Origin: a virus
Strand: one strand, 5' to 3'
Length of the DNA: 33,289 nt
IMG/VR virus record: IMGVR_UViG_3300025879_001511
Location: 1 to 33,289 of that record
The position numbers were made by a program, and so were the translations under genes. Position 1 is the first letter of the stretch. The number at the start of each line of letters is the position of its first letter. Below the pieces are notes generated by a model. The model had not been told where the DNA came from and ran no database searches. It was given only the letters and a program-made list of their open reading frames with translations. Positions 2 to 29,692 of the stretch are shown in pieces.

Positions 2-400
2 TTAACAATGCCATTTGGGGGGTATAAATCTCACGGTGATATTGTACAGTATTATGATATGAAGAACATAAAAGACTACCGAGTGGTGGATTTATGTGAC
101 TTTGAGAATAATGCCGAAATAGTAAACTGTGAGGTGGTTAAAAGTGACATGGTAAAAATTACACCTATAAATGTTCCTTTTAGACGAGTAGGATATTTTA
201 ATCTTCTAAGTCACAAATCTTCAGGATATGACGGTGGTGAATGGAGTGATATAAATATTCGATATAACCAACTAAGGTACCATAATGAAATGGAAAAGGG
301 ATATAGAGATTATATGAACGATGGACTCTCAAACTGTGAATACAAAACATGGGATGAGACAAAACTAAATAAACAAATACATTTATTAGTATCGATATGA
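2..400 (+). CDS. C-terminal part of a LamG-tailed protein (paralogue of the next gene), cut by the window edge
   Basis: The reading frame is open to the left edge, so the ATG at 8 is probably internal and the gene is 5'-truncated. What is visible matches the C-terminal third of the next gene: a G-[DE]-I-x(2)-Y-D strand that looks like the end of a concanavalin A/LamG-like domain, then a shared tail with PFRR-x-G-x-F, L-x-H, G-x-W and DG-x(2)-N-x(2)-Y. The protein is therefore likely a second glycosyltransferase-plus-LamG fusion or a related lectin-like protein, but no catalytic part lies in the window. Its stop overlaps the next start (ATGA at 397-400), as expected of translationally coupled genes. 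Function is inferred only from the paralogue. Confidence 0.6.
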   Translation, partial: LTMPFGGYKSHGDIVQYYDMKNIKDYRVVDLCDFENNAEIVNCEVVKSDMVKITPINVPFRRVGYFNLLSHKSSGYDGGEWSDINIRYNQLRYHNEMEKGYRDYMNDGLSNCEYKTWDETKLNKQIHLLVSI

Positions 401-1776
401 CACATAAATTAGGTATATGTATACCATATAGAAACCGTAAGGAACACTTAGATAAGTTGATTGATGTATTAGGTAAATACCTAAACAAAAAGGGTATCGA
501 CCATGGTTTTTATGTCGCAAACCAAACTGACGATAAACTATTCAATAGGGGATCAATGAAAAACATTGCGGCAATAAAAGCATTCGAAGATGGGTGTGAC
601 TATATTGCGTGGCATGATGTCGATATGTTACCAAATGATGACACATGTGACTATTCCTATCCGGATAAAACACCTGTACATATTGCAACCAAATTATCCA
701 AATACAGTTGGTCTATGGGATATGAGGAATATTTCGGTGGTGTAGTCTTATTCACTAAAGAACAGGTCGAAAAGACTAACGGTTACTCTAACGATTATTG
801 GGATTGGGGACAAGAAGACGATGATTTATTTTGGAGATGTAACTTTGAGGGATATGCAAATAAAGAGGTTATTGAAACAATAAAGGATAAACCAATTGGA
901 ACTTTTAACGGTAAATCCTCATACATCCGTTTTCCTGTTGATAGAACACTATCAAGTTGTTTCCACAGAGACCATACCATTTCGGTATTAGTAAAAACGT
1001 TCATAGATAAAGATGATGTGTGGTTAGTTGGAGATAAGGATCGTAAATTTAAAGAATTCCCTATACTAAGAAAAGAGAAGGGAGCGTTATGGGGTATATC
1101 ATTCAATAATTCCAGAACTTACGCATCATTCTATTACGATAGGTCGTCAACACCAATCTATAATTGGGTAAAAAGATCTGAAAATCTTTGGACTAGGTTT
1201 ACCATTTCATATAACCAAGAGGAGGGTGAATTATATATGTTTATGAACGATAAAATGATTTCAAATAACAGAGACATTGTAAGAGAAGAACCAATTAAGA
1301 TTACAAATAAATTAAAATTGGTTAGTTCTGTTGGCGATTTAATTGTGGGGTTCTGTCCCCACACAAACACGTGTTTTGGGGGTCAAATAGGGGAAATAAA
1401 AATATACGACACCTATTTTAAATCTATGAGTGACATAAATGACGATAATTTAATCCTTAACTACGATTTTGATGGTGGTCAAGAATATATTAATAGTGAC
1501 GTTATTTACACTAAGGAAGATGTTGAGGTTATAAGAAGTATTTTACCGTTCAGAAGACAAGGTAGTTTCCTTTGTTTACCACATATTGATGAGGGGTTCG
1601 TTAATGGTACGTGGTTTAAGGGTGAGACAACAGCAAGAAATGAGAAGAGATTTGTAACTGAGATGCAACAAAATAAAATTGATTATAAAAGTGATGGAAT
1701 TAATAATGTTAACTATAATATTGTTAAAACTATTAATTATAGTGATAATTGTAAAATGTATAATATAGAATTATGA
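397..1776 (+). CDS. GT7-type (beta-1,4-galactosyltransferase-like) glycosyltransferase with C-terminal LamG-like domain
   Basis: The N-terminal ~210 residues carry the hallmarks of family GT7. There is a PYRNR nucleotide-binding motif at residues 10-14, a metal-binding HDVD at 73-76 (DVD in the family), and the acceptor-site block from FGG (113-115) through NGYSNDYWDWGQEDDD (128-143), where animal beta-4-galactosyltransferases have WGGEDDD. Family members transfer galactose or related sugars from a UDP-sugar to an acceptor glycan. Residues ~215-380 are beta-rich and resemble a concanavalin A/LamG lectin fold, followed by a tail shared with the preceding gene. No signal peptide or membrane segment is seen, so it should act in the cytoplasm. 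It is coupled on both sides by ATGA overlaps. Donor and acceptor are unknown; the GT7 assignment itself is strong. Confidence 0.85.
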   Translation: MTHKLGICIPYRNRKEHLDKLIDVLGKYLNKKGIDHGFYVANQTDDKLFNRGSMKNIAAIKAFEDGCDYIAWHDVDMLPNDDTCDYSYPDKTPVHIATKLSKYSWSMGYEEYFGGVVLFTKEQVEKTNGYSNDYWDWGQEDDDLFWRCNFEGYANKEVIETIKDKPIGTFNGKSSYIRFPVDRTLSSCFHRDHTISVLVKTFIDKDDVWLVGDKDRKFKEFPILRKEKGALWGISFNNSRTYASFYYDRSSTPIYNWVKRSENLWTRFTISYNQEEGELYMFMNDKMISNNRDIVREEPIKITNKLKLVSSVGDLIVGFCPHTNTCFGGQIGEIKIYDTYFKSMSDINDDNLILNYDFDGGQEYINSDVIYTKEDVEVIRSILPFRRQGSFLCLPHIDEGFVNGTWFKGETTARNEKRFVTEMQQNKIDYKSDGINNVNYNIVKTINYSDNCKMYNIEL

Positions 1777-2786
1777 AAATATTAATTACGGGTGTAGGGG
1801 GATTATTGGGGTCTAGATTGGCCGATTACGTCATAGAGAAACACCCTCAACACAAAGTTATAGGTATAGACGATTTAAGTGGTGGATATAAAGAAAATAT
1901 AAACCCTAAAGTCGATTTTTGGCAAATGGATTTAGTTAATGATCCTATTGAAAATTGCTTTGAATTACACAAACCGGATATAGTTTACCATTTGGCCGCA
2001 TATGCTGCGGAAGGTTTATCCCCATTCATTAGAACCTATAATTATGATAACAATTTAAAGGCTACAGCTAAAATCGTAAACGAATGTATTAAGTGGAATG
2101 TGGATAGATTAGTGTTTACTTCTACTATGGCGGTATATGGACACGGATGGGAAGGTAAAAGACCTTTTGAAGAGATTGACCCACCAGCACCGATAGATCC
2201 TTATGGTATAGCTAAGTTTGCGTGTGAAATGGATATACAAGCGGCAGGTAACCAACATGGGCTCGACTGGACCATTATTAGACCCCATAACGTTTATGGT
2301 ATTAAACAAAACATATGGGATAAGTATAGAAACGTATTAGGTATATGGATGTACCAATACATGAATAACGAACCGTTAACTATTTTTGGTGATGGAGAAC
2401 AAAAAAGAGCTTGGAGTTATATTGACGATTGTTTGGATCCGTTATGGAAAGCCTCACAATTGAAAGAAGCATCTAAAGAGATTATAAATTTAGGGGGATC
2501 TAAATTTACTACCATTAATGAGGTGTGTCAATTAATTAGAGAGATTATGGGTGGTGGTGACGTAGAAAGAGTTCCTGTAGTGTATAAAGAACCTAGACAT
2601 GAAGTTAAAGACGCATACCCCACTCATAAGAAATCAGAAATAATTCTTGACTATAAAGATACGACCGATTTAAGAGACGGTCTAACCAAGATGTGGGAAT
2701 GGGCTAAGGCTCAACCTATGAGAGAGAGATTTGTGTGGGATAAATATGAATTAGATAAGGGTATTTACTCATTTTGGAAAAATTAA
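1773..2786 (+). CDS. NAD-dependent epimerase/dehydratase (extended SDR), nucleotide-sugar type
   Basis: This is an extended short-chain dehydrogenase of 337 residues, the normal size for nucleotide-sugar epimerases. It has the Rossmann motif GVGGLLG at 7-13, an acidic DD at 33-34 after strand 2, HLAA at 73-76, a serine-bearing strand TSTMAVYG at 116-123 and the catalytic YxxxK as Y144/K148. The RPHNVYG block at 170-176 is typical of UDP-glucose 4-epimerase and dTDP-glucose dehydratase relatives. It probably makes a modified nucleotide sugar for the glycosyltransferases beside it. The ATG overlaps the previous stop (ATGA). Which sugar is converted cannot be told from the sequence. Confidence 0.9.
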   Translation: MKILITGVGGLLGSRLADYVIEKHPQHKVIGIDDLSGGYKENINPKVDFWQMDLVNDPIENCFELHKPDIVYHLAAYAAEGLSPFIRTYNYDNNLKATAKIVNECIKWNVDRLVFTSTMAVYGHGWEGKRPFEEIDPPAPIDPYGIAKFACEMDIQAAGNQHGLDWTIIRPHNVYGIKQNIWDKYRNVLGIWMYQYMNNEPLTIFGDGEQKRAWSYIDDCLDPLWKASQLKEASKEIINLGGSKFTTINEVCQLIREIMGGGDVERVPVVYKEPRHEVKDAYPTHKKSEIILDYKDTTDLRDGLTKMWEWAKAQPMRERFVWDKYELDKGIYSFWKN

Positions 2787-2788
2787 TT

Positions 2789-4174
2789 ATGTCCTTAAAT
2801 CAAAAAGTTAAAGATAAGTTAGATGGTGTTGGATGTGGGTTTTGTTTAGCAAAGTGGACACAGGTTACCATGCATTTACATAATGGAATGACACATTCAT
2901 GTCATCATCCCGCACCACATAAAATACCTCTTTCCGAATTAAAAAATAACCCAAAGGCGTTACATAATACTAAACATAAAAAACTTAGGAGACGAGAGAT
3001 GTTAAATGGTGAAAAACCCGAAGAATGTAACTATTGTTGGAAGGTAGAAGAGTCGTCGAACTCGTTTTCGGATAGGGTTTTTAAGTCGTCTGAAACTTGG
3101 TCACTACCCCATTTAGAAGAAATTAAGGACATGAATTGGAGAGAAGATTATAATCCAAAATATGTTGAAGTTAGTTTCTCTAATACTTGTAACTTTAAGT
3201 GTTCTTACTGTAGTCCTATGTTTTCATCTAAATGGACTGAAGAGATAGACAAACACGGGGGTTACCCAACATCCACCAACTTCAACGACCAAACATGGGT
3301 TAAAGAAACCAATCAAGTACCTTATAAACAGTCAGAAGATAATCCATATGTAGAGGCCTTTTGGGAGTGGTGGCCAGAGCTGTACGGTGATTTACATACG
3401 TTCAGAGTAACAGGTGGGGAACCTCTACTTTCAAAGGACACGTGGAAATTATTGGAGTTTATTGCAAATACAGATACACCGAACAAAAACCTTAATCTAT
3501 CGATAAACACAAATTTAGGTGTACCTAAAAAATTGATTGATAGGTTTGTTAAATTAATTAAGAAAATAATTGATGAGGGTAGAGTTAAAGAATTTATTGT
3601 TTTTACGTCATGTGAATCTTATGGTAAACAGGCGGAATATATTCGTAACGGATTAGATTATGATTATTTTATAGAAAATGTGGAATATATTCTAACTGAG
3701 ATACCAAAAGTTACTATTAATGTAATGGCAACTTTTAATGCCATGTCCGTTTTCGGTTACGGGGATTTTATAGATAAAATTTACGAACTAAAGGTTAAGT
3801 ACCACAATAAAGAAAGGTATTGGATATCGGCTATTCAATTAGATACCTCTTACCTTAGATGGCCAACCCACCAATCCGTTAAAATACTTGATAATGAACA
3901 AAAAGAACTAATTTTAGAATGTGCAAAAAAGGCGTTCTATTATGCAACACAGGAATTTACACACGAATATGTGGGGTTTTCAGATACTGAAGTACAAAAA
4001 ATAAAGAGATTATATGATTATGCAATATCTGAAGATGACTTCGATATTGAGACCAATAGAAACGACTTTATTACATTTGTTGATGAACATGATAATAGGA
4101 GAGGTACTAACTTCATTGAAACCTTTCCAGAATTTAAAAAACTATACGACGATGTTAAAAATACAAGAGGGTGA
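2789..4174 (+). CDS. Radical SAM protein with N-terminal auxiliary-cluster (twitch-type) cysteines, copy 1
   Basis: The 461-residue protein has the radical SAM signature CxxxCxxC as C134, C138 and C141, followed by a GGEP motif (VTGGEPLLS), so it should bind a [4Fe-4S] cluster and S-adenosylmethionine. Four further cysteines (C19, C38, C80, C83) are conserved in the second copy downstream and probably hold an auxiliary Fe-S cluster, as in phage proteins annotated as twitch-domain radical SAM. The ATG at 2789, two bases after the previous stop, is preferred over an upstream TTG at 2774 because it aligns with the start of copy 2. Its substrate is unknown; modification of a peptide or sugar is a guess. 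Three bases separate the neighbouring LamG gene from copy 2. Confidence 0.85.
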   Translation: MSLNQKVKDKLDGVGCGFCLAKWTQVTMHLHNGMTHSCHHPAPHKIPLSELKNNPKALHNTKHKKLRRREMLNGEKPEECNYCWKVEESSNSFSDRVFKSSETWSLPHLEEIKDMNWREDYNPKYVEVSFSNTCNFKCSYCSPMFSSKWTEEIDKHGGYPTSTNFNDQTWVKETNQVPYKQSEDNPYVEAFWEWWPELYGDLHTFRVTGGEPLLSKDTWKLLEFIANTDTPNKNLNLSINTNLGVPKKLIDRFVKLIKKIIDEGRVKEFIVFTSCESYGKQAEYIRNGLDYDYFIENVEYILTEIPKVTINVMATFNAMSVFGYGDFIDKIYELKVKYHNKERYWISAIQLDTSYLRWPTHQSVKILDNEQKELILECAKKAFYYATQEFTHEYVGFSDTEVQKIKRLYDYAISEDDFDIETNRNDFITFVDEHDNRRGTNFIETFPEFKKLYDDVKNTRG

Positions 4175-4733
4175 ACCGTGGGTAATGTGGCCAGATAAAT
4201 TAGTTGGTAATTTTATTGATTATCCGGCAAATAAGATATTTGATTACGATGGGGATTATGAATTTACAATAGATTTTGAATTTGAGAGACCTATCTTAAA
4301 AAAACAAACATTATTTTCTAAATTACCGAGTTACTTTGGATTTGATTTAGAACCTAATGGGTTTACATTTATTTATACTGAGGAAGATAATAACACCGAA
4401 TATGTCTCAGTAAATTACCAATGGCAACATAAGGAAAGATATAAATTAAAAATATTAAAAAGGTCGTTCGAAATATTCATTTACATCGATGATATTTTAA
4501 TAATGACGGAATTTCTAAAGACAAAATTAAAGGTTGATGATATTTCACATATTATCTTTGGTGCGGGTAATTTTCCTAAAAATGGGTTTAATTTAAACTA
4601 TTTTTCAGTTATATTACATAGTGTGAAGATTATAAAAGATAGTGAATTAATATCGGATCACGAATTTAACAAATTCATTCACAATAAAAGTTTCGATTTA
4701 ACTAATAACTGTAATTTCATATATAAAATTTAA
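4152..4733 (+). CDS. Stand-alone LamG/concanavalin A-like domain protein
   Basis: This 193-residue protein consists almost entirely of alternating beta strands, with spacing like the LamG-like region of the GT7 fusion upstream. Shared features are a strand-forming F-x-I-D-F-E-F near the N-terminus, a K-x-K-I-x-K strand and a late V-K-I-I strand. Such jelly-roll domains usually bind glycans. No signal peptide or membrane segment is seen. The ATG at 4152 lies 23 bases inside the radical SAM gene; an alternative ATG at 4185 would give a protein 11 residues shorter. It sits between the two radical SAM copies, so it may present or recognise the same substrate, which is inference only. Confidence 0.6.
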   Translation: MLKIQEGEPWVMWPDKLVGNFIDYPANKIFDYDGDYEFTIDFEFERPILKKQTLFSKLPSYFGFDLEPNGFTFIYTEEDNNTEYVSVNYQWQHKERYKLKILKRSFEIFIYIDDILIMTEFLKTKLKVDDISHIIFGAGNFPKNGFNLNYFSVILHSVKIIKDSELISDHEFNKFIHNKSFDLTNNCNFIYKI

Positions 4734-4736
4734 AAA

Positions 4737-6185
4737 ATGTCAAAAGAATTAATTAATTGGAGAGATAAAAATCTTAATTCGGTGAGTAAAAGTTTCTGTG
4801 CTGCAAAATGGTACAACGCAAGTTTACATTTAGGACATGGGTTTACTAACTCGTGTCATCTACCTTTACCACACCCAATAGATTTAGAAGAGATAAAGGA
4901 TAATCCATCAGCATTACACAATACCAAACATAAAAAAGAAATGAGAAAGATGATGTTGGAGGGTAAAAAACCAGCAGAGTGTTCTTATTGTTGGAAGATA
5001 GAGGATATTGGACGTAATCACATTTCAGATCGTGTATATAAAAGTAGAATCTATAAAGAGGAGGACATAAAGGAACTAAAAGAACTTCCTTACGACCATG
5101 ATGTGTTGTTAAAGACAGTAGAAGTTAGTTTTGATAGGATATGTAATTTTGCTTGTAGTTATTGTAATTCAGGTTACAGTACTACGTGGGCTAAAGATAT
5201 AACAACTAACGGAGCATACCAAAAATTCAAGACAAGTAGTGCAGGGGCATATCATGCTGATGGGTCATGGGCTGAGAAGTTTGGTAAGCACGGACAAAAT
5301 AACCCATATGTGACTGCGTTTTTAGAGTGGTGGCCAGAACTATCAAAAACTTTGGAGGAGATTAGGGTAACCGGTGGAGAACCATCACAGAGTCACAATT
5401 TTTGGAACTTTATTGAGGTTTTAAAACAACATCCCGCTGAAAATCTAAGATTAGCTATAAATTCTAACTTAGGTGTTAATGAGAAGACCTTGGACAAGTT
5501 GATTTCAATGTCTCACGACCTACCAATTAAAGAGTTTGATCTTTACACGAGTAATGAATCGTTTGGGGAACACGCTGAATATATCAGAGATGGTTTAAAC
5601 TATAAAACTTGGAGGGAAAGTATGGTTAAATTCATTGAAAACGCTAAGTTTAGGTCTTTAACTATTATGATGACAGTTAATAGTTTATGTTTATTCAGTA
5701 TAACCGAATTTTTAGATGACATGGTTGTCTTAAAAAAGAAATACGGACCTAATAGACCTAATGTAGATTTAAACATCCTAAGATGGCCGTCATTTATGTC
5801 ACCACTTACACTTCCTGATGATATTAAAAAAGAACTACATAATAAATTAAAAACATGGTTTGATAATTACCGAGAGAGTGATTTATTTAGTATTTCTGAG
5901 AAAGCTCAGTTTGAGAGATTGATAGATTATATTGAGGTAGTTGAAAGAGGACACACGACGACTGAATTAGATAAAGAATTACAATTCCATGATTTTAAAA
6001 GTTTTTACGAACAATATGATAAGAGAAGAGGTAAAAGTTTTGTTAAAACTTTCCCTAAACTGAAAGAATGGTATGAGTCTTTAGTGGTCGATCAAACAAT
6101 TGCTGATGTTAAAGTTACCGATGGTAAAATAACACATTTCGAGGCGGGTGAATACGTATCAGACATAAAACCTAAACTAATATGA
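4737..6185 (+). CDS. Radical SAM protein with N-terminal auxiliary-cluster (twitch-type) cysteines, copy 2
   Basis: A clear paralogue of the radical SAM gene at 2789. It has CxxxCxxC at C136, C140 and C143, a VTGGEP motif, and matching auxiliary cysteines C21, C40, C82 and C85. Blocks such as ALHNTKHKK, PxECxYCWK and NPYVxAFxEWWPEL are almost identical in the two copies. It is 482 residues long and carries about 25 extra C-terminal residues. The start at 4737 follows the LamG gene by three bases and its stop overlaps the next start (ATGA at 6182-6185). Two diverged copies in one operon suggest consecutive or substrate-specific radical steps on related substrates. The reaction is unknown. Confidence 0.85.
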   Translation: MSKELINWRDKNLNSVSKSFCAAKWYNASLHLGHGFTNSCHLPLPHPIDLEEIKDNPSALHNTKHKKEMRKMMLEGKKPAECSYCWKIEDIGRNHISDRVYKSRIYKEEDIKELKELPYDHDVLLKTVEVSFDRICNFACSYCNSGYSTTWAKDITTNGAYQKFKTSSAGAYHADGSWAEKFGKHGQNNPYVTAFLEWWPELSKTLEEIRVTGGEPSQSHNFWNFIEVLKQHPAENLRLAINSNLGVNEKTLDKLISMSHDLPIKEFDLYTSNESFGEHAEYIRDGLNYKTWRESMVKFIENAKFRSLTIMMTVNSLCLFSITEFLDDMVVLKKKYGPNRPNVDLNILRWPSFMSPLTLPDDIKKELHNKLKTWFDNYRESDLFSISEKAQFERLIDYIEVVERGHTTTELDKELQFHDFKSFYEQYDKRRGKSFVKTFPKLKEWYESLVVDQTIADVKVTDGKITHFEAGEYVSDIKPKLI

Positions 6186-7459
6186 TAGACTTTCTTTTTG
6201 AAGACATAGAAAATCTCACAAATTTTAATACATGTAATGACACCAACACATCGGGTATAAAAAGGTTTGGTATATCACCTTTAGTTTCTGCCACTAATAT
6301 GTATTATGTAAGGAAAAAGGTAAAAAGTAAACTCAATTTTTTACCTCATACAGAAAAGTCAGACAAGTATATTATATCGAGTAGTGTTAACCACAGTCCC
6401 GATGATTGGACAGGATATAACCCCAAAGTCAAAAGTCTATTTGAGTACTTGAGTGAAAAGTATTTGAATGATTTACGTAACAGAAAGGCACTCCTTCTAT
6501 TAGATCAAAGTTTTGAAGGATACCAAACACCGTGGTTATGGAAATGGTTTCACGATGAGTGTGAAAAATATAACGTGTCACCAGAATGTATTGTCTATGT
6601 TACTGGTAACATGATAGTGGAGGATGTATACGATGAATGGGTTAAAAATAATGACATAAAAGAAAAAATCTGTGTTATAGGTTACCCACATTTTGAGTTG
6701 GATGTTGCAATGAATTGTGAACAGAAATCATTAAGTGACAACAAATTACCAACATTCGAGGATCACATAATACATAAAACAAAAAACGACATTAAGACAT
6801 TTTCGTGTCTTAATAAAAGAATTAGACCTCATAGGGTTTGGTTTTATAATTATTTATATCAATCGGGAATATTACAGGACGGTTTAGTTAGTATGAATAA
6901 TTTTATGGAACACGGTTATTGGTGGGAAGGAAAGGTTATGGAAATTGAAATTGTTAAAGAACTTAATAGTAGTTTACCATTAAAGGTTTATGATTTGGGT
7001 AACGACACACTAGACGATAGTTTTTATATAAACAGATTTAACCCTGAGGTGTGTATGGATACTTTTGTAAGTGTTGTTAGTGAAGCGCATTGTGGTGATA
7101 GTGACGATACACTTTTCCTAAGTGAAAAGATCTTCAAACCAATTGCGAGTAGACATCCTTTTATGGTTATGGGTAATAGAGGTAGTATAGAAAAGATGAG
7201 GGAGATGGGTTATAAAACATTTGACCAATACATCGACCAAAGTTATGATAATTTACCCACACACGAAAGATTATTAAAAATAGTGGATTCACTAAAACAA
7301 ATAAATAGTATAGAAGATAAGATCGAATGGTTTAAAAAAATGGAGGACGATATTGAATATAACTACGAACTTTTACAGAGTAGGATAAATACTAAACCAC
7401 CTAAATCATTTGAAAAACTACATAACTATTATAAGAATTTTTTTAAAGTATTAATATAA
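6182..7459 (+). CDS. Phage protein of unknown function with glycosyltransferase-like C-terminal motif, copy 1
   Basis: The 425-residue protein is a paralogue of the gene at 9197. Shared blocks are a Y-[VL]-x-GN motif (VTGNM), N-K-R-x-RPHR near the middle, and a C-terminal block LSEKIFKPI..HPF..MGN followed by GYKTFDQYIDQSYDN. The SEKIxKP(I)…PF pattern recalls the nucleotide-sugar-binding region of some GT-B glycosyltransferases (fucosyltransferase and exostosin type), and the surrounding genes act on sugars, so a glycosyltransferase role is plausible but unproven. No transmembrane segment or signal peptide is visible. It is coupled to both neighbours by ATGA and TAATG overlaps. Confidence 0.55.
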   Translation: MIDFLFEDIENLTNFNTCNDTNTSGIKRFGISPLVSATNMYYVRKKVKSKLNFLPHTEKSDKYIISSSVNHSPDDWTGYNPKVKSLFEYLSEKYLNDLRNRKALLLLDQSFEGYQTPWLWKWFHDECEKYNVSPECIVYVTGNMIVEDVYDEWVKNNDIKEKICVIGYPHFELDVAMNCEQKSLSDNKLPTFEDHIIHKTKNDIKTFSCLNKRIRPHRVWFYNYLYQSGILQDGLVSMNNFMEHGYWWEGKVMEIEIVKELNSSLPLKVYDLGNDTLDDSFYINRFNPEVCMDTFVSVVSEAHCGDSDDTLFLSEKIFKPIASRHPFMVMGNRGSIEKMREMGYKTFDQYIDQSYDNLPTHERLLKIVDSLKQINSIEDKIEWFKKMEDDIEYNYELLQSRINTKPPKSFEKLHNYYKNFFKVLI

Positions 7460-8361
7460 TGTATAGGTCACAATATTTAAACACAAACATAACGAAAGAC
7501 TCGAAAATTGTAATTGGGTTAGGTGATAGCTTCACCCAAGGACAGGGAGCATGTAAAGACGAAGTGTGGGAAAAACACGGTTGGTCCACAGAAAGTATGT
7601 ATAAAGACGGTATCACGACCATGCATGAGTATGAAGGGTCGTGGGTACATCAACTAACTAATAATCACCTTACGGATTATATTCCGGTAAATTTGGGGTT
7701 ACGAGGTTGTGGTAATAGGGCGGCAGTCAAAGAATTGTATTTACATCCTGAATTGAATATGGAAGTTGCGAAGGAGAAAATCGTAATATATATGTTAAGT
7801 GGTATGGAGAGGTTTGATTTCATTAATCGTGATTACAACGACCACCACCATTTTTTCGCTATGTGGCCTAACCCATGGGATAAAGACAGTACAAATAAAA
7901 AATTGTGGCAAGCATATGCCGAAAACATATGGTCAGACACATTTGGTTATATCGAAATGTTACTAAATATTGTTGAGGCTCAGACGTGGTGTAAGGCTAA
8001 TAACGCTAAATTAATAATAACCAGTGCATTCAGATGTGATTATACAAAGGAAGATTACATGATGAACCTCAAAAAGGATAACCAATTAAAACTAATTGAT
8101 ACTATTGAGTGGGGTAATTTTCTTTATCCGAATGGTAATCTAAGTATGACCGATATGTTAGTAGGGTTTGAAGATAGGGATGACTTAAAAGGTGGTGGTT
8201 TTTATGGATGGGCCATGGGGGTCGATAAAAAGACACCTAAAGGATTATTTACAAAATGTTCTCACCCAAGTTATGACGGACACAAAATAATTGCCGAAAC
8301 AATATACGATTACATTAAAAACGGTCCTGAGAGACACCAATTAACTAAAAAACTAATATAA
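7459..8361 (+). CDS. SGNH/GDSL-type hydrolase or acyltransferase, copy 1
   Basis: A GDSFTQG block at residues 22-28 gives the nucleophile S24. It is followed by NLGLRGCGN, which supplies the block II glycine and block III asparagine, and by a C-terminal SHPSYDGH block with the catalytic histidine. This is the order of an SGNH hydrolase, a family that removes or transfers acyl groups on sugars and lipids. The usual DxxH aspartate is not in place (the residue three before the histidine is lysine), so it may work as a Ser-His dyad. The 300 residues lack a signal peptide, which argues for action on a cytoplasmic glycan precursor. It starts on a TAATG overlap and ends next to a second SGNH gene. 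Confidence 0.7.
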   Translation: MYRSQYLNTNITKDSKIVIGLGDSFTQGQGACKDEVWEKHGWSTESMYKDGITTMHEYEGSWVHQLTNNHLTDYIPVNLGLRGCGNRAAVKELYLHPELNMEVAKEKIVIYMLSGMERFDFINRDYNDHHHFFAMWPNPWDKDSTNKKLWQAYAENIWSDTFGYIEMLLNIVEAQTWCKANNAKLIITSAFRCDYTKEDYMMNLKKDNQLKLIDTIEWGNFLYPNGNLSMTDMLVGFEDRDDLKGGGFYGWAMGVDKKTPKGLFTKCSHPSYDGHKIIAETIYDYIKNGPERHQLTKKLI

Positions 8362-9252
8362 ATGAAGCACGGTAAGATAGTTGACGGAAGATACATATGG
8401 TATGGGGGTAAACCACTTCCTGATTATTTTGAGGATGGTAATGATATATTACCAATATATTCACCTATGCCCCACACTAAAACACATAAGTTCTATATGG
8501 GAGATAGTGAAGAACTCTACAAACAAAATCTAAAGGATAAACCTGAGGATTGGGTATGGAGAGATCAAAAGGTAGAATATAATATGAACAGTTTAGGTTA
8601 CAGAACAAAAGAATTTGACGAACATGATTGGAAAGAATCTATAGTTGTTTTCGGGTGTTCCTGTGTTTTTGGTGTTGGGGTTGACAATGAACAGACATTA
8701 CCACATTACATATCTGAGTTGACAGCAAGAAATGTCATTAATTTAGGTATACCCGGTGGGTCAAACCAACGTATGTTGGACCTAAGTTTAGCAATGAAAC
8801 GAAAATACGGGGAACCTTACTCCATCATAATGATGTGGACTTGTATGGATAGACTACCGTATTATACAAAAAACGGAGTACATAATATTGGGTTATGGAG
8901 TCACACTATAACAAAACACGACGCGTATGCTCAACGATGGAAATCAATATTTGATAATTTTTATGAGGAAGACTCACACGAAAAAATAACTTTCTATAAT
9001 ATTGCCGAATCAATGAGGAACATATGGTCAGATAAAACAAAATATTATGATTCATCATACTTTGAATCCACATCACATTACGGTAAATTAAATAATTTTC
9101 ACTCATTTTCTGTAGGTGCTAGAGATTTATTACATCCCGGACCTAACGACCATAAAAACGCATCTAAAGAAATAGTTGCAAATCTTATACAAAAATATGG
9201 AAAAAATTATATGCAGCCTGGAGGATTGGGACACGATTTTGGATTATTATAG
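8362..9252 (+). CDS. SGNH-like hydrolase or acyltransferase, copy 2 (GCS instead of GDS)
   Basis: The 296-residue protein has an SGNH layout after an ~80-residue N-terminal extension. FGCS at 97-100 occupies the position of the GDS block with the serine kept (S100); NLGIPGGSNQ at 127-136 carries blocks II and III; a late DLLHPGPNDH provides a proper DxxH pair. The D-to-C change in the first block is unusual. It resembles phage proteins of the SGNH superfamily rather than the first copy closely. Its end overlaps the start of the next gene by 56 bases. An acylation or deacylation step on the operon's glycan is the likeliest role. Confidence 0.55.
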   Translation: MKHGKIVDGRYIWYGGKPLPDYFEDGNDILPIYSPMPHTKTHKFYMGDSEELYKQNLKDKPEDWVWRDQKVEYNMNSLGYRTKEFDEHDWKESIVVFGCSCVFGVGVDNEQTLPHYISELTARNVINLGIPGGSNQRMLDLSLAMKRKYGEPYSIIMMWTCMDRLPYYTKNGVHNIGLWSHTITKHDAYAQRWKSIFDNFYEEDSHEKITFYNIAESMRNIWSDKTKYYDSSYFESTSHYGKLNNFHSFSVGARDLLHPGPNDHKNASKEIVANLIQKYGKNYMQPGGLGHDFGLL

Positions 9253-10459
9253 ACCTAACGGGTCTTCTAAAACGTGGTATTTAAAGGAATTAGGTCAATT
9301 ACACCTACCGTTAATGTGGGCGGAATGGACTTTGTTTTCTGAGGATGGTGAGATGTTTAATTTGGATAGATATAAGAGAACCATTACTGCCCCTTATTCG
9401 GAGAGAGTGGAGTACACGAGTCCCGATAAAATACAAGGACAATCACACATATACATAATAAATGTCAATGACAATAACTTCTTCACGAAGAACTATGATA
9501 TTGGTTTTTCTTGTGTTTCTGAAAATTACCTACAAGATGTTAGAAATGGAAAATCCGCAATAGTTTTATTTTTACCCTATGAGGGTTATTCGGGGACTGA
9601 AGGTAATTACGACTTTGAGATAATTGACAATTGGAGACAAAAATCTAAATTACCTGAAGGGTCGGTATATTATTTAAATGGTAATCTATTAAGTGAAAAA
9701 ATAGTAAAAAAACGAGGACTAGGTATTAAAGGGATTTCATTACATTACTTTGAACCTTGGAATAAATATGACGAACCGTTAGCGGAGTACAAACCAATAG
9801 ACGATAAAAACTTATTTCTTTCATATAATAGACAACCAAGACCACATAGGATAAACCTTGCGATTGATCTATTGAGAAAGGGGATTTTTAATAGAGGTTT
9901 ATTAAGTCTTTATAAATTAGAATCGACCCCACCACATGCAACAACAACGGAGAGTAACTTTTTAATTCAAAATTCTCCATTCACAATTGATAGTAATTAC
10001 GATTTATTTTATAACTTAGCAATTAATATAACCAAAGAGGATTATGAGAGAACATTTATTTCGTTGGTTACTGAGACGTTAGTTAATAAGGGTACATTAT
10101 TTTTATCTGAAAAAATATGGAAACCCATAATGGTGGGACACCCTTTTATTGTTTATGGGAATGTTGGGACATTAGGATATTTGAAGTCGTTAGGGTATAA
10201 AACTTTTGATAAGTGGATTGATGAGAGTTATGATGAAATTATTGACGAATCAGAAAGGTGTTATAAAATAGTATCCGAAGTTAGTAAGTTTTCTAAAATG
10301 TCCGTGGACGAACTTAAAAAAATAAGACAAGAGATGAACGAGGTATGTCTACATAACCAAGAAAACTATAAAAAGGTTTACAAGGAAAGGTACGATGAAC
10401 ACGGTAACTCTTACAAGGTTGAAGAAGTATTGAGTAATATTTGGGATAAAATTAAATAA
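9197..10459 (+). CDS. Phage protein of unknown function with glycosyltransferase-like C-terminal motif, copy 2
   Basis: Paralogue of the gene at 6182, 420 residues from the ATG at 9197. An upstream in-frame TTG at 9176 would add seven residues but is a poorer start. Shared blocks include YLNGN, N-R-Q-x-RPHR and LSEKIWKPI..GHPF..YGN followed by GYKTFDKWIDESYDE. The two copies flank the SGNH pair, giving the order X-SGNH-SGNH-X. The C-terminal block resembles the donor-binding end of GT-B enzymes, but no full fold assignment is possible by eye. Function is unassigned, with glycosyltransferase the leading idea. It ends seven bases before the sugar dehydrogenase. Confidence 0.55.
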   Translation: MEKIICSLEDWDTILDYYRPNGSSKTWYLKELGQLHLPLMWAEWTLFSEDGEMFNLDRYKRTITAPYSERVEYTSPDKIQGQSHIYIINVNDNNFFTKNYDIGFSCVSENYLQDVRNGKSAIVLFLPYEGYSGTEGNYDFEIIDNWRQKSKLPEGSVYYLNGNLLSEKIVKKRGLGIKGISLHYFEPWNKYDEPLAEYKPIDDKNLFLSYNRQPRPHRINLAIDLLRKGIFNRGLLSLYKLESTPPHATTTESNFLIQNSPFTIDSNYDLFYNLAINITKEDYERTFISLVTETLVNKGTLFLSEKIWKPIMVGHPFIVYGNVGTLGYLKSLGYKTFDKWIDESYDEIIDESERCYKIVSEVSKFSKMSVDELKKIRQEMNEVCLHNQENYKKVYKERYDEHGNSYKVEEVLSNIWDKIK

Positions 10460-10466
10460 AAATAAT

Positions 10467-11609
10467 ATGAATATAGGATTTATAGGTATAGGTAAATTAG
10501 GGTTAGACGTAGCACAGGTAATGTCTAAAACACATAACGTTGAGGGGTATGATGTGGTTGAAAGGAAAGATGTTGGATTCACCATGAGATCGAACTTGGA
10601 GGATTTATGTAAAGATAAGGAAATGATTTTTATTGCGGTACCAACACCACATGATCCACTATATGATGGTAAATTACCAACATCACACTTACCACCTAAA
10701 GATTTTAATTATGACATAGTTAAGGGTATTTTAGAAGAGTTAAATAACTATTGTAATAAAGATCAGTTGATCGTGTTAATATCAACCGTATTACCCGGAA
10801 CAACAAGAAAAGAGTTTATACCGATAGTTAAAAATTATAGATTCATTTATAACCCTTACTTGATTGCCATGGGGACTGTAAAGGAGGATTTTGTTAATCC
10901 TGAAATGGTTATAATCGGTACGGAAGATGGGTCACAAACCACCGACGCTAAAAAGTTGGTTGACTTTTATAAGACAATTATCTCGGATGGGTCAAGATAT
11001 GAGATAGGGACGTGGGATGAGGCCGAATCAATAAAGATATTTTATAATACGTTCATATCAGTAAAGATTTCTGTGGTAAACATGATACAAGATGTTGCTG
11101 AAAAAAATACCAATATAGACACAGATATTGTTACGGGGGCATTAGAAAGAAGTACATATAGAGTTACCGGTCCGGCTTATATGAAAGCAGGAATGGGTGA
11201 CGGTGGTTCTTGTCACCCTAGAGATAACATTGCATTACGACACATGGCTGAAGAGTATGGGTTAGGTTACGATTTATTTGATGCAATAATGAAGTCAAGA
11301 GAAGTACAAGCCCAAAACATATCCACTAAATTAATGGACTTATCAAAACAACACGGATTACCCATTGTAATTATGGGTGAGAGTTATAAACCGGGAGTAC
11401 CTTACACAGATGGATCGTACACAAAATTAATTCATCATTATTTAAATGATTCTAACGTACCCTTTGACATTATCAAAGGTCCGGCAGTTTACCTGTTGGG
11501 ACATAGAGGGGTGTTTAATGAAACAAACTTCCCTGAGGGTAGTGTTGTTTTAGACCCATGGAGGGAGAGATCCAATAAAGACACGGTATATTACGGTAAA
11601 CATATTTAA
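10467..11609 (+). CDS. UDP-glucose/GDP-mannose dehydrogenase family protein
   Basis: The 380-residue protein has an N-terminal Rossmann fold with GIGKLG at 7-12 and the family's central block with GGSCHPRDN, where C249 matches the catalytic cysteine that forms the thioester intermediate. It also has a C-terminal MGESYKPGVPYTDGS block typical of the UDP-binding domain. Relatives oxidise UDP-glucose, UDP-N-acetyl sugars or GDP-mannose to the uronic acid using two NAD+. The length is slightly below the usual 390-450. The start is preceded by A/T-only sequence without a Shine-Dalgarno site. It should supply an acidic sugar for the same pathway as the epimerase at 1773. Confidence 0.85.
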   Translation: MNIGFIGIGKLGLDVAQVMSKTHNVEGYDVVERKDVGFTMRSNLEDLCKDKEMIFIAVPTPHDPLYDGKLPTSHLPPKDFNYDIVKGILEELNNYCNKDQLIVLISTVLPGTTRKEFIPIVKNYRFIYNPYLIAMGTVKEDFVNPEMVIIGTEDGSQTTDAKKLVDFYKTIISDGSRYEIGTWDEAESIKIFYNTFISVKISVVNMIQDVAEKNTNIDTDIVTGALERSTYRVTGPAYMKAGMGDGGSCHPRDNIALRHMAEEYGLGYDLFDAIMKSREVQAQNISTKLMDLSKQHGLPIVIMGESYKPGVPYTDGSYTKLIHHYLNDSNVPFDIIKGPAVYLLGHRGVFNETNFPEGSVVLDPWRERSNKDTVYYGKHI

Positions 11610-12613
11610 TGAAGGCTATACATACATATGTTCCGTGTAATGGGAACGACACAATAAGTAAAAAGATGGTTTACAATATGTTACTGTCCACACTTTTAGG
11701 TAATGTATTTTTTGATGACGTAATATTATACACTACAACTAAAATAAAAAAGATAGTGGAGTATATTGGAATACCATATAAACAAATAATTGAAGTACCA
11801 TTTAACGAAACTAAACGGGGTACATTTTCTATACCTAAATTAGAGACGTACTCATTACAAACTGAACCATTTATACATATTGATTTAGATAGTCATTTAT
11901 ATAATATAGACCCCAATAAAGTGGGAAAAATGGACATTTTCTTCTCGTATCCCGACATGTCGGTTGGGGATGGGACATACGAATCTATTGAAAGGTTACA
12001 TAATACGTATCTTAAAAAATTGTATGAGATGTCAGATATAATTCCGGCAGAACTTAAAGAACATATAACTCTTTTTGATATACCTAATTTCTGTGTATTT
12101 GGGGGTAATAACACTCAACTTATTAGGGATTCAACTAATTATTGTTTAGAGATATATAAATCTAACAAAGATCTGTTCGATAAGGACTATTACAACGCCT
12201 GTATTATTGAACAATTATTAATACCGTCAGCAATGAAAATGCTAGGTGGTAAAAGTGAGTTCGATTATTTATATGAAACGAAAGACAAAGTAACTATGGA
12301 TGGTGATTCCTATCCATTTAAAATGATGTATGGGGGTAAAAATGTAAACATAAATAATGAGGAGAGACTTTATAATCTTGTTAATGGGGATTACGGACAA
12401 ATCATACATCTAAACGGATATAAAGATACAGAAACATTACTTTTCCTCACTAGAGAAATGATAATACAAAGGTTTAATGGTTCTAAATATATCTTTAAAA
12501 TTAATGACTTATACCATGAAAAATATGAATTTGAGAATATAAGTAAAAGGTACTACACCAAACTAAAAGAAGAAATAAATCATTGGGATAAAACCCATGA
12601 GAGATTAATATAG
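11609..12613 (+). CDS. DUF6734-like protein, possible GT-A-type sugar-transfer enzyme
   Basis: A 334-residue protein beginning with a short beta strand (KAIHTYVP) and carrying HIDLDSHLY near residue 90, a DxD-like acidic motif at the end of a predicted strand. That layout recalls GT-A glycosyltransferases, and proteins of this look are annotated DUF6734 as far as I remember; this could not be checked. A late N-G-Y-K-D block follows a Q-I-I-H-L-N strand. It starts on a TAATG overlap with the dehydrogenase, which supports a role in the same sugar pathway. The specific reaction is unknown. Confidence 0.5.
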   Translation: MKAIHTYVPCNGNDTISKKMVYNMLLSTLLGNVFFDDVILYTTTKIKKIVEYIGIPYKQIIEVPFNETKRGTFSIPKLETYSLQTEPFIHIDLDSHLYNIDPNKVGKMDIFFSYPDMSVGDGTYESIERLHNTYLKKLYEMSDIIPAELKEHITLFDIPNFCVFGGNNTQLIRDSTNYCLEIYKSNKDLFDKDYYNACIIEQLLIPSAMKMLGGKSEFDYLYETKDKVTMDGDSYPFKMMYGGKNVNINNEERLYNLVNGDYGQIIHLNGYKDTETLLFLTREMIIQRFNGSKYIFKINDLYHEKYEFENISKRYYTKLKEEINHWDKTHERLI

Positions 12614-12760: not shown

Positions 12761-14446
12761 ATGGTCAACAATAAAAAATATGTAATAGGGATCTCTTGTT
12801 TCTACCACGACTCCTCGGCTTGTCTATTTGTAGATGGGAAGTTGGCATATGCCTGCGAGGAAGAGAAATTCACAGGTATTAAACACGATGATAGATTCCC
12901 AAGTAACTCAATTAATTATATATTTAATATGTACGGTATTGGTTATGATGATGTGAGTGCTGTGTGTTTCTATGAAGACCCTAACTTAAAAAGGGAAAGA
13001 ATTAAAAACAATTACAATCTATCAAAAACATTTCACTTTATGAGATCAATGTTTAGATTTAATTCTAACCAAAAGATTTTATCGAAAGAACTAAAAAAAT
13101 TCACCAACTCAGAAATATTCTATTCAAAACACCACGATTCACACTTATATTATTCGGCATTTAGTTCGGACTTTAAAAAATCTGTAGTGGTGTCAATTGA
13201 TGGTGTTGGTGAAACAGATAGTGCAACTATTGGGGTTTATGATGGTCAAAATATAAAATCGATAAGTATCGGGGAGTACCCTAACTCTTTAGGGTTATTT
13301 TATTCCGCAATGACGGCATTCTTAGGGTTCAGACCAAATGAAGGTGAATATAAAGTAATGGGATTAAGTGCATATGGTAGTTACAAAAAATATATTGAAC
13401 CTTTAAGGGACTTGGTGAAATTTGAAGACGGTAAAATTATCTGTAATATGGATTATTTTACGTGGAATAAATCACATAATACCATGTTTTCTAGTAAATT
13501 ATACAAACTATTAGATGTTTTACCAAGAATACCAGACAGTGAACTAACTAGTGAATATACAGATATTGCCTGTGCGGTTCAAAAAGTTTACGAGGAGTTA
13601 CTTTTTGAAATACTAAACCACTATTCAGAAATTTATGAGGACATTGAAAACATATGTCTTGGTGGTGGATGTGCTTATAATGGTTTAGCTAATGGTAAGA
13701 TATATGAGAATACTAAATTTAAACATATATGGATACCACCATCACCATCAGATGCCGGTTCTTCCGTTGGTGCGTGTATTAATTATATTGTTAATGAACT
13801 TGGCGTAAAACCCACCATTCCTAAGACCCCATTTATTGGTCCGACTTTTAATGTGACAAAATCGTATAAGAAAAAATTAAGAGATTCGGGTGTGATTTAT
13901 TTGGAGGATGACAGTCTTTATAAATTAATTGCACGTGAACTATATAGAGGTAAAGTTATTGGGTGGTATAGAGATGAAATTGAGTTTGGTGCAAGAGCAT
14001 TAGGGAATAGATCCATATTAGCTGACCCAAGTAAACCAAACATGAAAGAAAGGATAAACAAACTCATTAAAAAAAGAGAAGGGTTTAGACCTTTTGCACC
14101 AATGGTCACAAAAGAAAGACAACATGAGTTCTTTAATATGGTTGACGACATACCTTATATGAATCAAGTGGTTACGGTAAAAGAAGAATTTAGAGATAAG
14201 TTACCTTCAATTACCCATGTTGACGGTAGTGCAAGGGTACAAACAGTATATAAGGATAATCAAATACATAGATTATTGAGAGAATTCGAAAAAATATCAT
14301 CAATACCCATTCTATTAAACACATCTTTTAACATTAAAGATAAAACAATGGTTTTAACGCCTGAACAGGCAATACAAACATTACGAGATACTGATATGGA
14401 TATATTGGTGTTACAGAACATATTAATATTTAATAATAAGAAATGA
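12761..14446 (+). CDS. Carbamoyltransferase, NodU/CmcH/TobZ family
   Basis: The 561-residue protein has the full two-domain layout. The N-terminal Kae1-like domain begins IGISCFYHDSSACL and carries KHHDSH, SIDGVGE and LGGGCAYNGLAN. The C-terminal domain carries GWYRDEIEFGARALGNRSILADP, EGFRPFAP and LLNTSFNIKD. Family members move a carbamoyl group from carbamoyl phosphate, through carbamoyl-adenylate, to a hydroxyl on a sugar or antibiotic. The length is normal and no key block is missing, so it should be active. Here it probably carbamoylates the glycan or precursor made by the operon. Its stop overlaps the start of the next gene (14443-14446). Confidence 0.92.
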   Translation: MVNNKKYVIGISCFYHDSSACLFVDGKLAYACEEEKFTGIKHDDRFPSNSINYIFNMYGIGYDDVSAVCFYEDPNLKRERIKNNYNLSKTFHFMRSMFRFNSNQKILSKELKKFTNSEIFYSKHHDSHLYYSAFSSDFKKSVVVSIDGVGETDSATIGVYDGQNIKSISIGEYPNSLGLFYSAMTAFLGFRPNEGEYKVMGLSAYGSYKKYIEPLRDLVKFEDGKIICNMDYFTWNKSHNTMFSSKLYKLLDVLPRIPDSELTSEYTDIACAVQKVYEELLFEILNHYSEIYEDIENICLGGGCAYNGLANGKIYENTKFKHIWIPPSPSDAGSSVGACINYIVNELGVKPTIPKTPFIGPTFNVTKSYKKKLRDSGVIYLEDDSLYKLIARELYRGKVIGWYRDEIEFGARALGNRSILADPSKPNMKERINKLIKKREGFRPFAPMVTKERQHEFFNMVDDIPYMNQVVTVKEEFRDKLPSITHVDGSARVQTVYKDNQIHRLLREFEKISSIPILLNTSFNIKDKTMVLTPEQAIQTLRDTDMDILVLQNILIFNNKK

Positions 14447-14883
14447 TATATTGGTTTACGGGGCAACCCTCACACGGAAAAACGGTTTTAGCAAATAAAC
14501 TTAAAGAACATTTACCCAATGCGTTTAGAATAGATGGGGATGAAATGAGGGAGTTATTCACTAATAAAGATTATAGTATAAATGGTAGGGTTGTAAATGT
14601 CAATACGGCACAGCGTATCGCTCACTACCTACACAATCAAGGACATGATGTCATTGTTGCATTGGTCTCACCTTACATAGATCAGAGAGAGGATTTTAAA
14701 AAACTCATCGGTACGGAAAATATGGTTGAGTTCTATATACACACTACCGAGGTAAGAGAAAGGGATCACTTTAAATCAATTGCTTACACACCACCAATAA
14801 CGGATTATGTGGATATTGATACAACACACGACACACCTGAAGAAAGTTTTGAAATAATAAAAAAATGGATAAATAAATTATAA
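14443..14883 (+). CDS. Adenylylsulfate (APS) kinase-like P-loop kinase
   Basis: At 146 residues it is shorter than the usual ~200-residue APS kinase but keeps the order of motifs: P-loop GQPSHGKT at 7-14, DGDEMR at 32-37 where APS kinase has DGDNxR, a YSINGR segment, and VSPY-x(3)-R. Near the end it has Y-T-PP instead of a longer lid. APS kinase phosphorylates adenylylsulfate to PAPS, the sulfate donor for sulfotransferases. The protein could thus supply sulfate for glycan decoration, though no sulfotransferase is recognised in the window and the short lid leaves room for another small substrate. It overlaps both neighbours. Confidence 0.75.
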   Translation: MIYWFTGQPSHGKTVLANKLKEHLPNAFRIDGDEMRELFTNKDYSINGRVVNVNTAQRIAHYLHNQGHDVIVALVSPYIDQREDFKKLIGTENMVEFYIHTTEVRERDHFKSIAYTPPITDYVDIDTTHDTPEESFEIIKKWINKL

Positions 14884-15284
14884 TGGGAGTAATTAAAACA
14901 CAAGCAGCATTTCAAAGTTCTTCATCGGAAGTAAAGTATTCATTCTTCGCGGGGAGATGGCAACCACTACACAAAGGACATTTGTGGTTGATTAATGAAA
15001 GGTTAAAAGAAGGGTACAACGTATGGTTGGGTATTCGAGACGTGGAGCCAGATGAAAAGAACCCATGGACCGCTCAAGAAATTTTGGAAATGATAAAAGA
15101 GGGTGAGTTGAAAGAACTTATCGAAGAAGGAAAAGTTTTACCGACCATCATACCGGATATTGAATCAATCAATTATGGTCGTGGTGTTGGATATGATATC
15201 ATAGAACACTACCCACCAAAGGAGATAGGTAATATTTCCGCCACCTCTATCAGAGAACAAATGAAAAAAGATGGTAAATTATAA
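14883..15284 (+). CDS. HxGH-type nucleotidyltransferase (cytidylyltransferase/NMN adenylyltransferase fold)
   Basis: The motif F-A-G-R-W-Q-P-L-H-K-G-H near the N-terminus is the adenylyl/cytidylyl-transfer signature (HxGH), and ISATSIR near the C-terminus is the matching ISxTxIR phosphate-binding motif. The 133 residues cover just the catalytic fold. Family members join a nucleoside monophosphate to a phosphorylated substrate such as nicotinamide mononucleotide, phosphopantetheine or glycerol phosphate. ATP sulfurylase belongs to the same superfamily, and the gene follows an APS kinase by a one-base overlap, so making APS is possible but unproven. Its end is overlapped by DUF2061. Confidence 0.75.
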   Translation: MGVIKTQAAFQSSSSEVKYSFFAGRWQPLHKGHLWLINERLKEGYNVWLGIRDVEPDEKNPWTAQEILEMIKEGELKELIEEGKVLPTIIPDIESINYGRGVGYDIIEHYPPKEIGNISATSIREQMKKDGKL

Positions 15285-27719: not shown

Positions 27720-27863
27720 ATGAAAATAGACGAAGATAAAGTCTTCGGTGAATTGTATAAAACATACAATAAGAGCGAAATGTTCATGGAAGATGAACAG
27801 TTAGTTAGAGATGTGATACGAATTATAGAACAATTAGAAGAAAAAGTTGATAGAATAAGATGA
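27720..27863 (+). CDS. Small acidic protein, 47 residues
   Basis: The ATG at 27720 is preferred to an in-frame TTG at 27681 that lies within the exonuclease. The product begins MKIDEDKVFGELYK and ends in a leucine/glutamate helix (IIEQLEEKVDRIR), likely a short coiled coil. It ends in an ATGA overlap with the RNA ligase start, so it is probably translated with it. No function is assigned. Confidence 0.5.
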   Translation: MKIDEDKVFGELYKTYNKSEMFMEDEQLVRDVIRIIEQLEEKVDRIR

Positions 27864-29677: not shown

Positions 29678-29692
29678 CCGGGAAGTTGTTTT

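Follow-up and report, generated by a model that had tools for sequence, protein, structure and literature searches.

Gene content of the locus

The window analyzed here is a virus record of 33,289 bases (IMG/VR record IMGVR_UViG_3300025879_001511), and the subject is a run of genes lying in one direction from position 2 to 12613, in which neighbors overlap or sit 7 bases or less apart. Within this run, positions 2789–10459 encode two radical S-adenosylmethionine (radical SAM; rSAM) enzymes on either side of a LamG-like protein, followed by two members of a family here called X on either side of two SGNH-like proteins. This order was correctly given in an earlier note on the same DNA, which read it as two symmetric sets of duplicates; a further pair in tandem a short way upstream, formed by GT7 proteins that match each other at E 2e-12, was overlooked there. 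The description as duplicate copies holds for the rSAM proteins (37% identity over 473 columns, E 3e-100) and for the paralogs X1 and X2 (29% over 347 columns, E 2e-25). It does not hold for the SGNH proteins as close copies, whose best local match is 23% (E 0.021) and whose families match at the profile level (hhalign probability 99.5). The genes of the run are the following.

2–400, + strand: GT7 glycosyltransferase, first copy, C-terminal part, its 5′ end cut by the window (GT7 profile columns 344–468)
397–1776, + strand: GT7 glycosyltransferase, second copy, its catalytic domain split into two halves by a LamG-like insert (PF02709 68.1 bits, PF13733 67.2 bits, over cutoff)
1773–2786, + strand: NAD-dependent nucleotide-sugar epimerase/dehydratase (PF01370 157.6 bits; phrog_540)
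2789–4174, + strand: rSAM_A, twitch-domain radical SAM enzyme, before LamG (NF033640 352.6 bits; clade A; model pLDDT 94.5)
4152–4733, + strand: free-standing LamG-like protein (hhalign 99.7 to the GT7 insert; 23-base overlap with the rSAM_A end)
4737–6185, + strand: rSAM_B, twitch-domain radical SAM enzyme, after LamG (NF033640 308.3 bits; clade B)
6182–7459, + strand: X1, predicted GT-B-fold protein, most likely a glycosyltransferase, no Pfam family (model pLDDT 93.7; fold matches; X-then-S1 set, support 100)
7459–8361, + strand: S1, SGNH-hydrolase-like (GDSFTQG at 22, N86, HP at 269)
8362–9252, + strand: S2, divergent SGNH-like (GCSCVFG at 98; NF047475 below cutoff; S1/S2 family profile match)
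9197–10459, + strand: X2, paralog of X1 (29% identity; adjoins UGDH in relatives)
10467–11609, + strand: UDP-glucose 6-dehydrogenase-like protein, UGDH (PF00984, PF03721; phrog_9148 290 bits)
11609–12613, + strand: DUF6734 protein (PF20508 72.6 bits)

Conservation of the rSAM–LamG–rSAM cassette

Relatives were collected with two seeds. An rSAM_A-seeded viral scan yielded 251 stretches encoding an rSAM_A relative, the best 80 of which are the 80 loci discussed below, their genes labeled by profiles. An rSAM is present in all 80 by construction, and many are near-copies, leaving 52 after dereplication (below 90% identity in the first rSAM). A second seed, GT7 (60 loci), served to reduce this bias, and the 41 contigs absent from the rSAM-seeded set were counted without dereplication. 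The gene-order shuffles used for comparison ignore operon structure. A LamG-like family (c34, hhalign 99.8) was counted as LamG in the 41 GT7-seeded contigs and not in the 80 loci. A third “GT7” of ∼240 amino acids in many loci is not a glycosyltransferase; it matches only the LamG-insert columns of the profile and was counted as LamG.

An rSAM gene adjoined LamG in 71/80 loci (76/80 with c34 as LamG) and in 46/52 dereplicated loci, as compared to a shuffled mean of 9.6. The full rSAM–LamG–rSAM order was present in 50/80 and 29/52 (shuffled 2.8, maximum 7), GT7–GT7–rSAM–LamG in 51/80 and 31/52 (shuffled mean 0.08), and GT7–GT7–rSAM–LamG–rSAM in 40/80 and 21/52 (shuffled 0.01). Among the 41 GT7-seeded contigs, 35 carried an rSAM, 27 carried rSAM–LamG, and 24 carried rSAM–LamG–rSAM, while the remaining six stop within the GT7 pair or ∼230 bases or less from it. 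Profile labeling extended the block to the order methyltransferase–GT2–GT7–GT7–rSAM_A–LamG–rSAM_B–(rSAM)n, the tested members of the two families upstream of the GT7 genes being a Methyltransf_24 protein (family c1) and a GT2-like protein (family c0). Both genes are known from relatives and would fall upstream of the window's cut edge. The rSAM and LamG genes overlap by some length at 72/75 junctions examined (first-ATG rule); in the window, LamG starts with the ATG at 4152, 23 bases inside the end of rSAM_A. The “two” of the earlier note does not stand as a fixed copy number, rSAM genes ranging from one (19 loci) to eight (4 loci) per locus among the 80.

Phylogeny separated the copies by position. 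The rSAM tree holds 110 rSAMs, from 29 hand-picked loci including the window plus 10 cellular, and comes with a long-branch warning; like the X and GT7 trees, it was built by a quick method without bootstrap, and branch supports are quoted as given. All 27 before-LamG rows fell into one set of 29 (support 99), designated clade A, whose two extra rows are a second rSAM of locus L019 and the rSAM of L062, where an X gene intervenes. After LamG, 26 of the 27 rows formed a set (support 97), designated clade B, together with the rSAM of L022, where one open reading frame (ORF) intervenes; the 27th is the L019 row already placed in the clade A set. Eight of 10 bacterial rows joined the A side (support 99), labeled Bdellovibrionota (seven) and Rickettsiales (one), and the other two (L091 and L122) lay on long branches outside it. 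In the GT7 tree (32 hand-picked loci, 30 giving a pair, plus the window), 31 first copies and 31 second copies were separated by one branch with support of 100, and the truncated copy at 2–400, with 27% of its columns filled, grouped with the first copies. On the basis of these rSAM and GT7 clades, two ordered paralog pairs have been inherited together, and rSAM–LamG–rSAM is a real and ancient cassette. This part of the earlier note survives: rather than unrelated copies adjoining one another on this contig alone, the rSAM genes form two supported clades in an order that recurs.

The viral cassette, whole or in part, was also seen in three loci filed under Flavobacteriales, Pelagibacterales, and Gammaproteobacteria (L114, L119, and L083), which are perhaps phage contigs binned with bacteria.

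Sequence, fold, and distribution of the rSAM proteins

Both window rSAM proteins score above the curated cutoff of NF033640 (170 bits), and neither reached the curated cutoff of any other listed NCBIfam family; for viperin-like radical SAM, the curated score is 180 bits and the proteins obtained 22.1 and 15.3 bits. rSAM_A carries C134-C138-C141, GGEP at 209, and N-terminal C19/C38/C80/C83; rSAM_B carries CNFACSYC at 136 and GGEP at 213. Across relatives (246 copies kept after excluding ORFs below 330 amino acids), the SAM-cluster cysteines (CxxxCxxC) and the GG motif were present in 246/246, and the four N-terminal auxiliary cysteines in 238/239, 239/239, 238/239, and 238/238 of the rows reaching them, rows gapped at a column being excluded there. 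The rSAM copies are thus intact in sequence, with a putative auxiliary cluster site in the N-terminal part. When clade A (n = 27) and clade B (n = 26) sequences were compared, 70 positions were conserved alike and eight were conserved but different, for example Y355 in A versus I347 in B. These eight class-specific positions are more readily explained by distinct sites or substrates than by simple dosage.

In a tblastn search of 50,697 phage records, rSAM_A matched two Vibrio phages at 22.6% identity, and X1, X2, S1, and S2 matched nothing at E 1e-5; rSAM_B, LamG, and GT7 were not among the queries. The family is multiplied in cellular genomes as well: at E 1e-20, it had 20, 1, 12, 7, and 0 matches in five genomes reached via the loci and zero matches in 14 control genomes. 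Peptide patterns gave 74 cellular loci, 52 of them labeled Bdellovibrio-like (Oligoflexia included), the last eight of the 74 being short or distant matches. One such genome, labeled Bdellovibrionia (G001, C1 ∼745–774 kb; L285–L286), carries more than 10 twitch rSAM genes in 30 kb, in a stretch that includes a homolog of phage family c14 (weak dimethylargininase match). Two loci filed under Rickettsiales and Pelagibacter (L140 and L143) have five rSAM genes side by side, with an S2-labeled gene behind them; in L140, one ORF splits two of the five.

The LamG protein and the GT7 pair

The free-standing LamG-like protein matched none of the Pfam LamG models at E 0.1. Its only match was PF22925 (trans-sialidase C-terminal domain) at E 0.0027, below cutoff. 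Clear homology between this protein and the LamG-like insert in the GT7 proteins ties the rSAM pair to glycosyltransferases beyond mere neighborhood. Conservation within the LamG family is marked at G136 (78/78) and D181 (76/76), with six more positions above 75%. The complete GT7 protein, in addition to both Pfam halves, has DVD at 74 and EDDD at 140, presumably its catalytic motifs.

The X family

A structural model of X1, built from an alignment of 62 X proteins, had a mean pLDDT of 93.7. In the VIA-align comparison, 50/50 listed rows span the model, all of them glycosyltransferases as judged from their titles or known activities. The best fold match was the GT10 fucosyltransferase 2nzx (Z 12.7, root-mean-square deviation 5.1, 280 aligned), and T4 beta-glucosyltransferase 1c3j scored Z 11.9; to both enzymes (the former an alpha-1,3-fucosyltransferase), the match runs over the whole length at 8 to 9% identity. 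Foldseek alone was weaker (best E 8.9e-5, TM 0.41). The model thus predicts a GT-B fold for X1, which is most likely a glycosyltransferase. X1 also has the motif SEKI-KPI-HPF, in which SEK presumably resembles the TEK motif of GT10. By sequence, X1 matched no Pfam family, the 62 X members gave weak matches to 42 Pfam families (the 25 shown agree on nothing, and none is GT10), and a PDB sequence search returned weak unrelated matches (best E 0.015). As a single query by peptide patterns, X1 found no viral relatives and X2 found 68; profile labeling did find X1 relatives.

X1 and X2 differ in their relatives and in their neighbors. In the X tree (32 sources, hand-picked loci, with a long-branch warning; a larger X tree was also built), the window's X1 fell into a set of 10 (support 100), eight of which are followed by S1, and X2 into another set of 10 (support 95), seven of which are followed by UGDH. 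Conversely, 8/9 X-then-S1 rows were in the X1 set and 7/11 X-then-UGDH rows in the X2 set; since X1 occurs without S1 in L068 and L073, these partners are imperfect marks of clade. Among the 52 X genes of the dereplicated loci, 17 adjoined epimerases (shuffled 6.9) and 13 adjoined SGNH-like genes (shuffled 4.1), with none of 500 shuffles as high in either case. Fusions of X with an epimerase were found in L076 and L080 and with an SGNH-like domain in L059 (by inspection of the motif) and L060 (by the profile of family c5, called SGNH from its GCSFTWG motif). In many further viral contigs (L170–L224), X genes lie antisense between opposite-strand genes, often beside the same ∼404-amino acid gene.

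SGNH proteins and the X–SGNH–SGNH–X arrangement

S1 has S24, G80/G85, N86, and H269 invariant in eight rows, which we take to be the catalytic Ser, the oxyanion Gly and Asn, and the catalytic His. No Pfam or NCBIfam family was over cutoff, and S1 is for this reason called SGNH-like only. S2, with GCSCVFG at 98 and HP at 258, matched NF047475 (GDSL-type, E 0.0087) and DUF6071 (E 0.0021) weakly, both below cutoff. In a tree of 86 rows, with S1 and S2 labels taken from profiles, the window's S1 belonged to a set of 14 S1 rows (support 100), while its S2 was joined by the L157 and L158 S2 proteins alone (support 100), far from the rest. By this placement, S1 and S2 are not sisters.

The order X–S1–S2–X occurred in 0/80 rSAM-seeded loci; in the other sets examined, it was found in the close relative L157 only, L158 being cut inside S2. 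In four contigs (each with two locus names, L074/L160, L072/L162, L070/L163, and L071/L164), X1–S1 and X2–UGDH lie apart. L074/L160 has X1–S1 after rSAM_B and ten genes between S1 and X2, a place taken by S2 alone in the window and in L157. That X–SGNH–SGNH–X is a genuine symmetric module arisen by co-duplication, a question separate from that of the rSAM substrate, might be suggested by the paralogy of X1 and X2, by X–S1–X in L018 and L022 (2/80) and in L114, and by the excess of X/SGNH-like neighbors over chance. We regard it as very improbable, given that X1 and X2 fall into separate clades, each with its own usual partner, and stand apart in L162–L164 and relatives, that the two SGNH proteins are not sisters, and that the X genes of L114 group with neither X1 nor X2 of the window. 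The symmetric unit proposed in the earlier note is accordingly given up: as far as gene order and trees indicate, X–SGNH–SGNH–X is the junction of X1–S1 and X2–UGDH, not a unit. The X–SGNH neighborhood is nevertheless real.

Other genes of the window

Downstream of the run lie further genes that lead to a tail fiber.

12761–14446, + strand: NodU/CmcH-type carbamoyltransferase (PF16861, PF02543)
14443–14883, + strand: APS-kinase-like P-loop kinase (PF01583 59.6 bits)
14883–15284, + strand: cytidylyltransferase-like protein (PF01467 26.6 bits)
15528–22127, + strand: long tail fiber with intramolecular chaperone (Peptidase_S74), adjoining the glycan block (PF13884; phrog_11011)

The window also holds seven tRNA genes (Thr, Gly, Glu, Ala, Asp, and two Met) at 29317–32315, with a homing endonuclease gene amid them (29730–30410). 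A tRNA nucleotidyltransferase (poly-A polymerase head domain; 23017–23754) and an RNA ligase (27860–28906) form a tRNA-repair-like set near this array. At 13451–16096 of L018, families c18, c17 (aminotransferase-like, by eye), and c14 (weak dimethylargininase match) form a block that is found again in several loci and hints at a guanidino sugar. The phage is probably contractile-tailed, as indicated by a tail-sheath gene in the relative L011.

Proposed function and alternative explanations

We propose that the run is a phage glycan-synthesis island on whose product rSAM_A and rSAM_B would act as tailoring enzymes while LamG holds the chain; taken as a whole, this statement seems to us slightly better than an even bet. 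The conserved core (methyltransferase, GT2, the two LamG-bearing GT7 proteins, rSAM_A, LamG, and rSAM_B) would build and tailor the base of a sugar chain, and its outer part would be assembled and decorated by the products of the variable downstream genes (X, epimerases, SGNH-like, UGDH, and carbamoyltransferase). The LamG modules in the GT7 proteins and the separate LamG between the rSAM genes may hold the growing glycan, into which rSAM_A and rSAM_B would each introduce a distinct radical change, such as epimerization, dehydrogenation, or deoxygenation. A glycan as the rSAM substrate, the chemistry, and the role of LamG as chain holder are each proposed; the glycan might sit on the virion or on the host surface. 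The virion is plausible because a long tail fiber adjoins the block and because virion glycosylation is known in mycobacteriophages, as told in PMC12619734, whereas PMC7029224 argues for the host surface. A sugar substrate is favored on account of the surroundings, namely the epimerase, UGDH, carbamoyltransferase, and X genes, together with the GT2 genes that lie among the rSAM genes of the one cluster examined in G003 (labeled Halobacteriovoraceae).

Several observations weigh against this proposal. The glycan binding of LamG is itself putative. LamG is directly followed by an rSAM in 51/80 loci, so that rSAM_B is optional. X lies beside rSAM at chance level (12/52, with 116/500 shuffles as high) and never adjoins GT7 in the dereplicated loci, and the Foldseek list for X1 includes UDP-GlcNAc 2-epimerases (3ot5, rank 10), which share the GT-B fold, so that transferase activity of X is no more than likely. 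The T4 late-promoter octamer shows no excess (nine versus 7.7 expected). The fold does not settle the rSAM substrate, peptide- and sugar-acting enzymes matching the model about as closely: the peptide maturase SkfB is best (Z 14.6), with SuiB and anSME close to it, the sugar-acting BlsE (Z 13.5) and DesII (Z 13.3) rank high in the same list, and Foldseek alone places viperin first (E 3.5e-4), with AprD4 also in its list. Our confidence is tempered by the 2-epimerases in the X1 list and by the presence of rSAM by construction in the 80-locus set.

The same fold matches bear on two rival substrates. Twitch/SPASM rSAM enzymes mostly act on peptides and proteins, and the pair could modify side chains of a phage protein, such as the tail fiber or LamG, with the glycosyltransferases then using the modified residue. 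SkfB, SuiB, and anSME point this way, as do the position of LamG between the two rSAM genes, the adjoining tail fiber, and PqqD-like (peptide-recognition) genes near rSAM in four bacterial loci, adjacent to it in L142 (PF05402 21.1 bits, cutoff 23.4), which speak for peptide substrates in some relatives and count against a glycan. A precursor peptide hidden within the window's cassette was rejected, as gaps from 397 to 12613 are 7 bases or less and leave no space for such a gene; in relatives, where ORFs below 80 amino acids were not looked for, one ∼82-amino acid family (c15) occurs near GT7 genes in 10 loci. LamG as the substrate is opposed by its few near-invariant residues and by its occurrence within the GT7 proteins, which fits binding better, and a protein substrate in general by the GT2 genes in G003. 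A protein substrate therefore seems unlikely to us. Comparably unlikely, if perhaps a shade less so, is action on free nucleotide sugars before transfer, with LamG noncatalytic. DesII acts on TDP-sugars and BlsE on cytosylglucuronic acid, and the standing of both in the fold list, the Foldseek match to AprD4, and the UGDH and epimerase genes of the same island are consistent with such a role. However, no sugar-nucleotide gene tracks the rSAM genes: against the 35 of 41 GT7-seeded contigs with an rSAM, UGDH occurs in six and the epimerase family in seven (these are short loci), and UGDH occurs in 16/80 rSAM-seeded loci, where the rSAM is there by construction. Free sugars would also leave LamG beside rSAM_A in 71/80 loci unexplained.

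Phage rSAM genes are often listed as host-derived auxiliary metabolic genes (261 ahbD genes in the Baltic, termed speculative by the authors of PMC9301287), and the present genes could belong to haem, cofactor, or Fe-S metabolism and be paired by chance. With NF033640 the only NCBIfam family at curated cutoff, and with a fixed order alongside glycosyltransferases in two separately seeded sets, there is very little to recommend this explanation. The glycan-tailoring proposal can be extended to an ordered series of one to eight site-specific rSAM enzymes remodeling the sugars of a surface glycan of aquatic tailed phages while it is polymerized or afterward, with a LamG module common to glycosyltransferases and radical enzymes holding the chain, a generalization that we offer tentatively and consider doubtful. 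The enzyme family that would serve such a radical-tailored phage glycan was found, among the cellular genomes scanned, mainly in predatory Bdellovibrionota.

Relation to known systems and significance

rSAM genes in phage glycosyltransferase islands are already in print. The excerpt of PMC7029224 describes a hypervariable host-recognition cluster of pelagimyophages with glycosyltransferases, UDP-glucose dehydrogenase, and rSAM cassettes, reminiscent of the present locus in its position in the tail-fiber region of a T4-like marine phage, its many glycosyltransferases, UGDH, and rSAM genes. Unlike here, the rSAM cassettes described there are additions differing between two genomes, and the excerpt names no GT7–GT7–rSAM–LamG–rSAM order, ordered paralogs, or X family. 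The T4-like environmental genome TARA_ERS488813_N000010 has 12 radical SAM genes (PMC5332604), as compared to up to eight here per stretch of ∼21 kb or less; the 12 genes are discussed in the part of that article drawn on here as Fe-S metabolism, with no glycan-gene link drawn, in contrast to the loci described above. The excerpts of PMC10783043 and PMC7150976 hold nothing decisive for the cassette, and no description of the ordered cassette or of the X family was found by title or abstract in the open-license PubMed Central literature. Both window rSAM proteins are members of NF033640, within which A and B are two phage clades and for which no known function was found in the open-license literature. 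A core fold is shared with BlsE and DesII (18% and 14% identity) and, via Foldseek, with AprD4; unlike these three, the window rSAM has its four-cysteine auxiliary domain at the N terminus.

Marine phages commonly carry glycosyltransferase islands in their tail-fiber regions, and these islands await an explanation. Across many such phages, a cassette of two GT7 proteins, LamG, and paired rSAM enzymes kept in fixed order makes up a defined, testable enzyme set. If the proposal is true, radical SAM chemistry would reach phage glycans, NF033640 and a GT-B family that lacks a Pfam model would each gain a suggested function, and the finding would caution against listing phage rSAM genes as cofactor metabolism.

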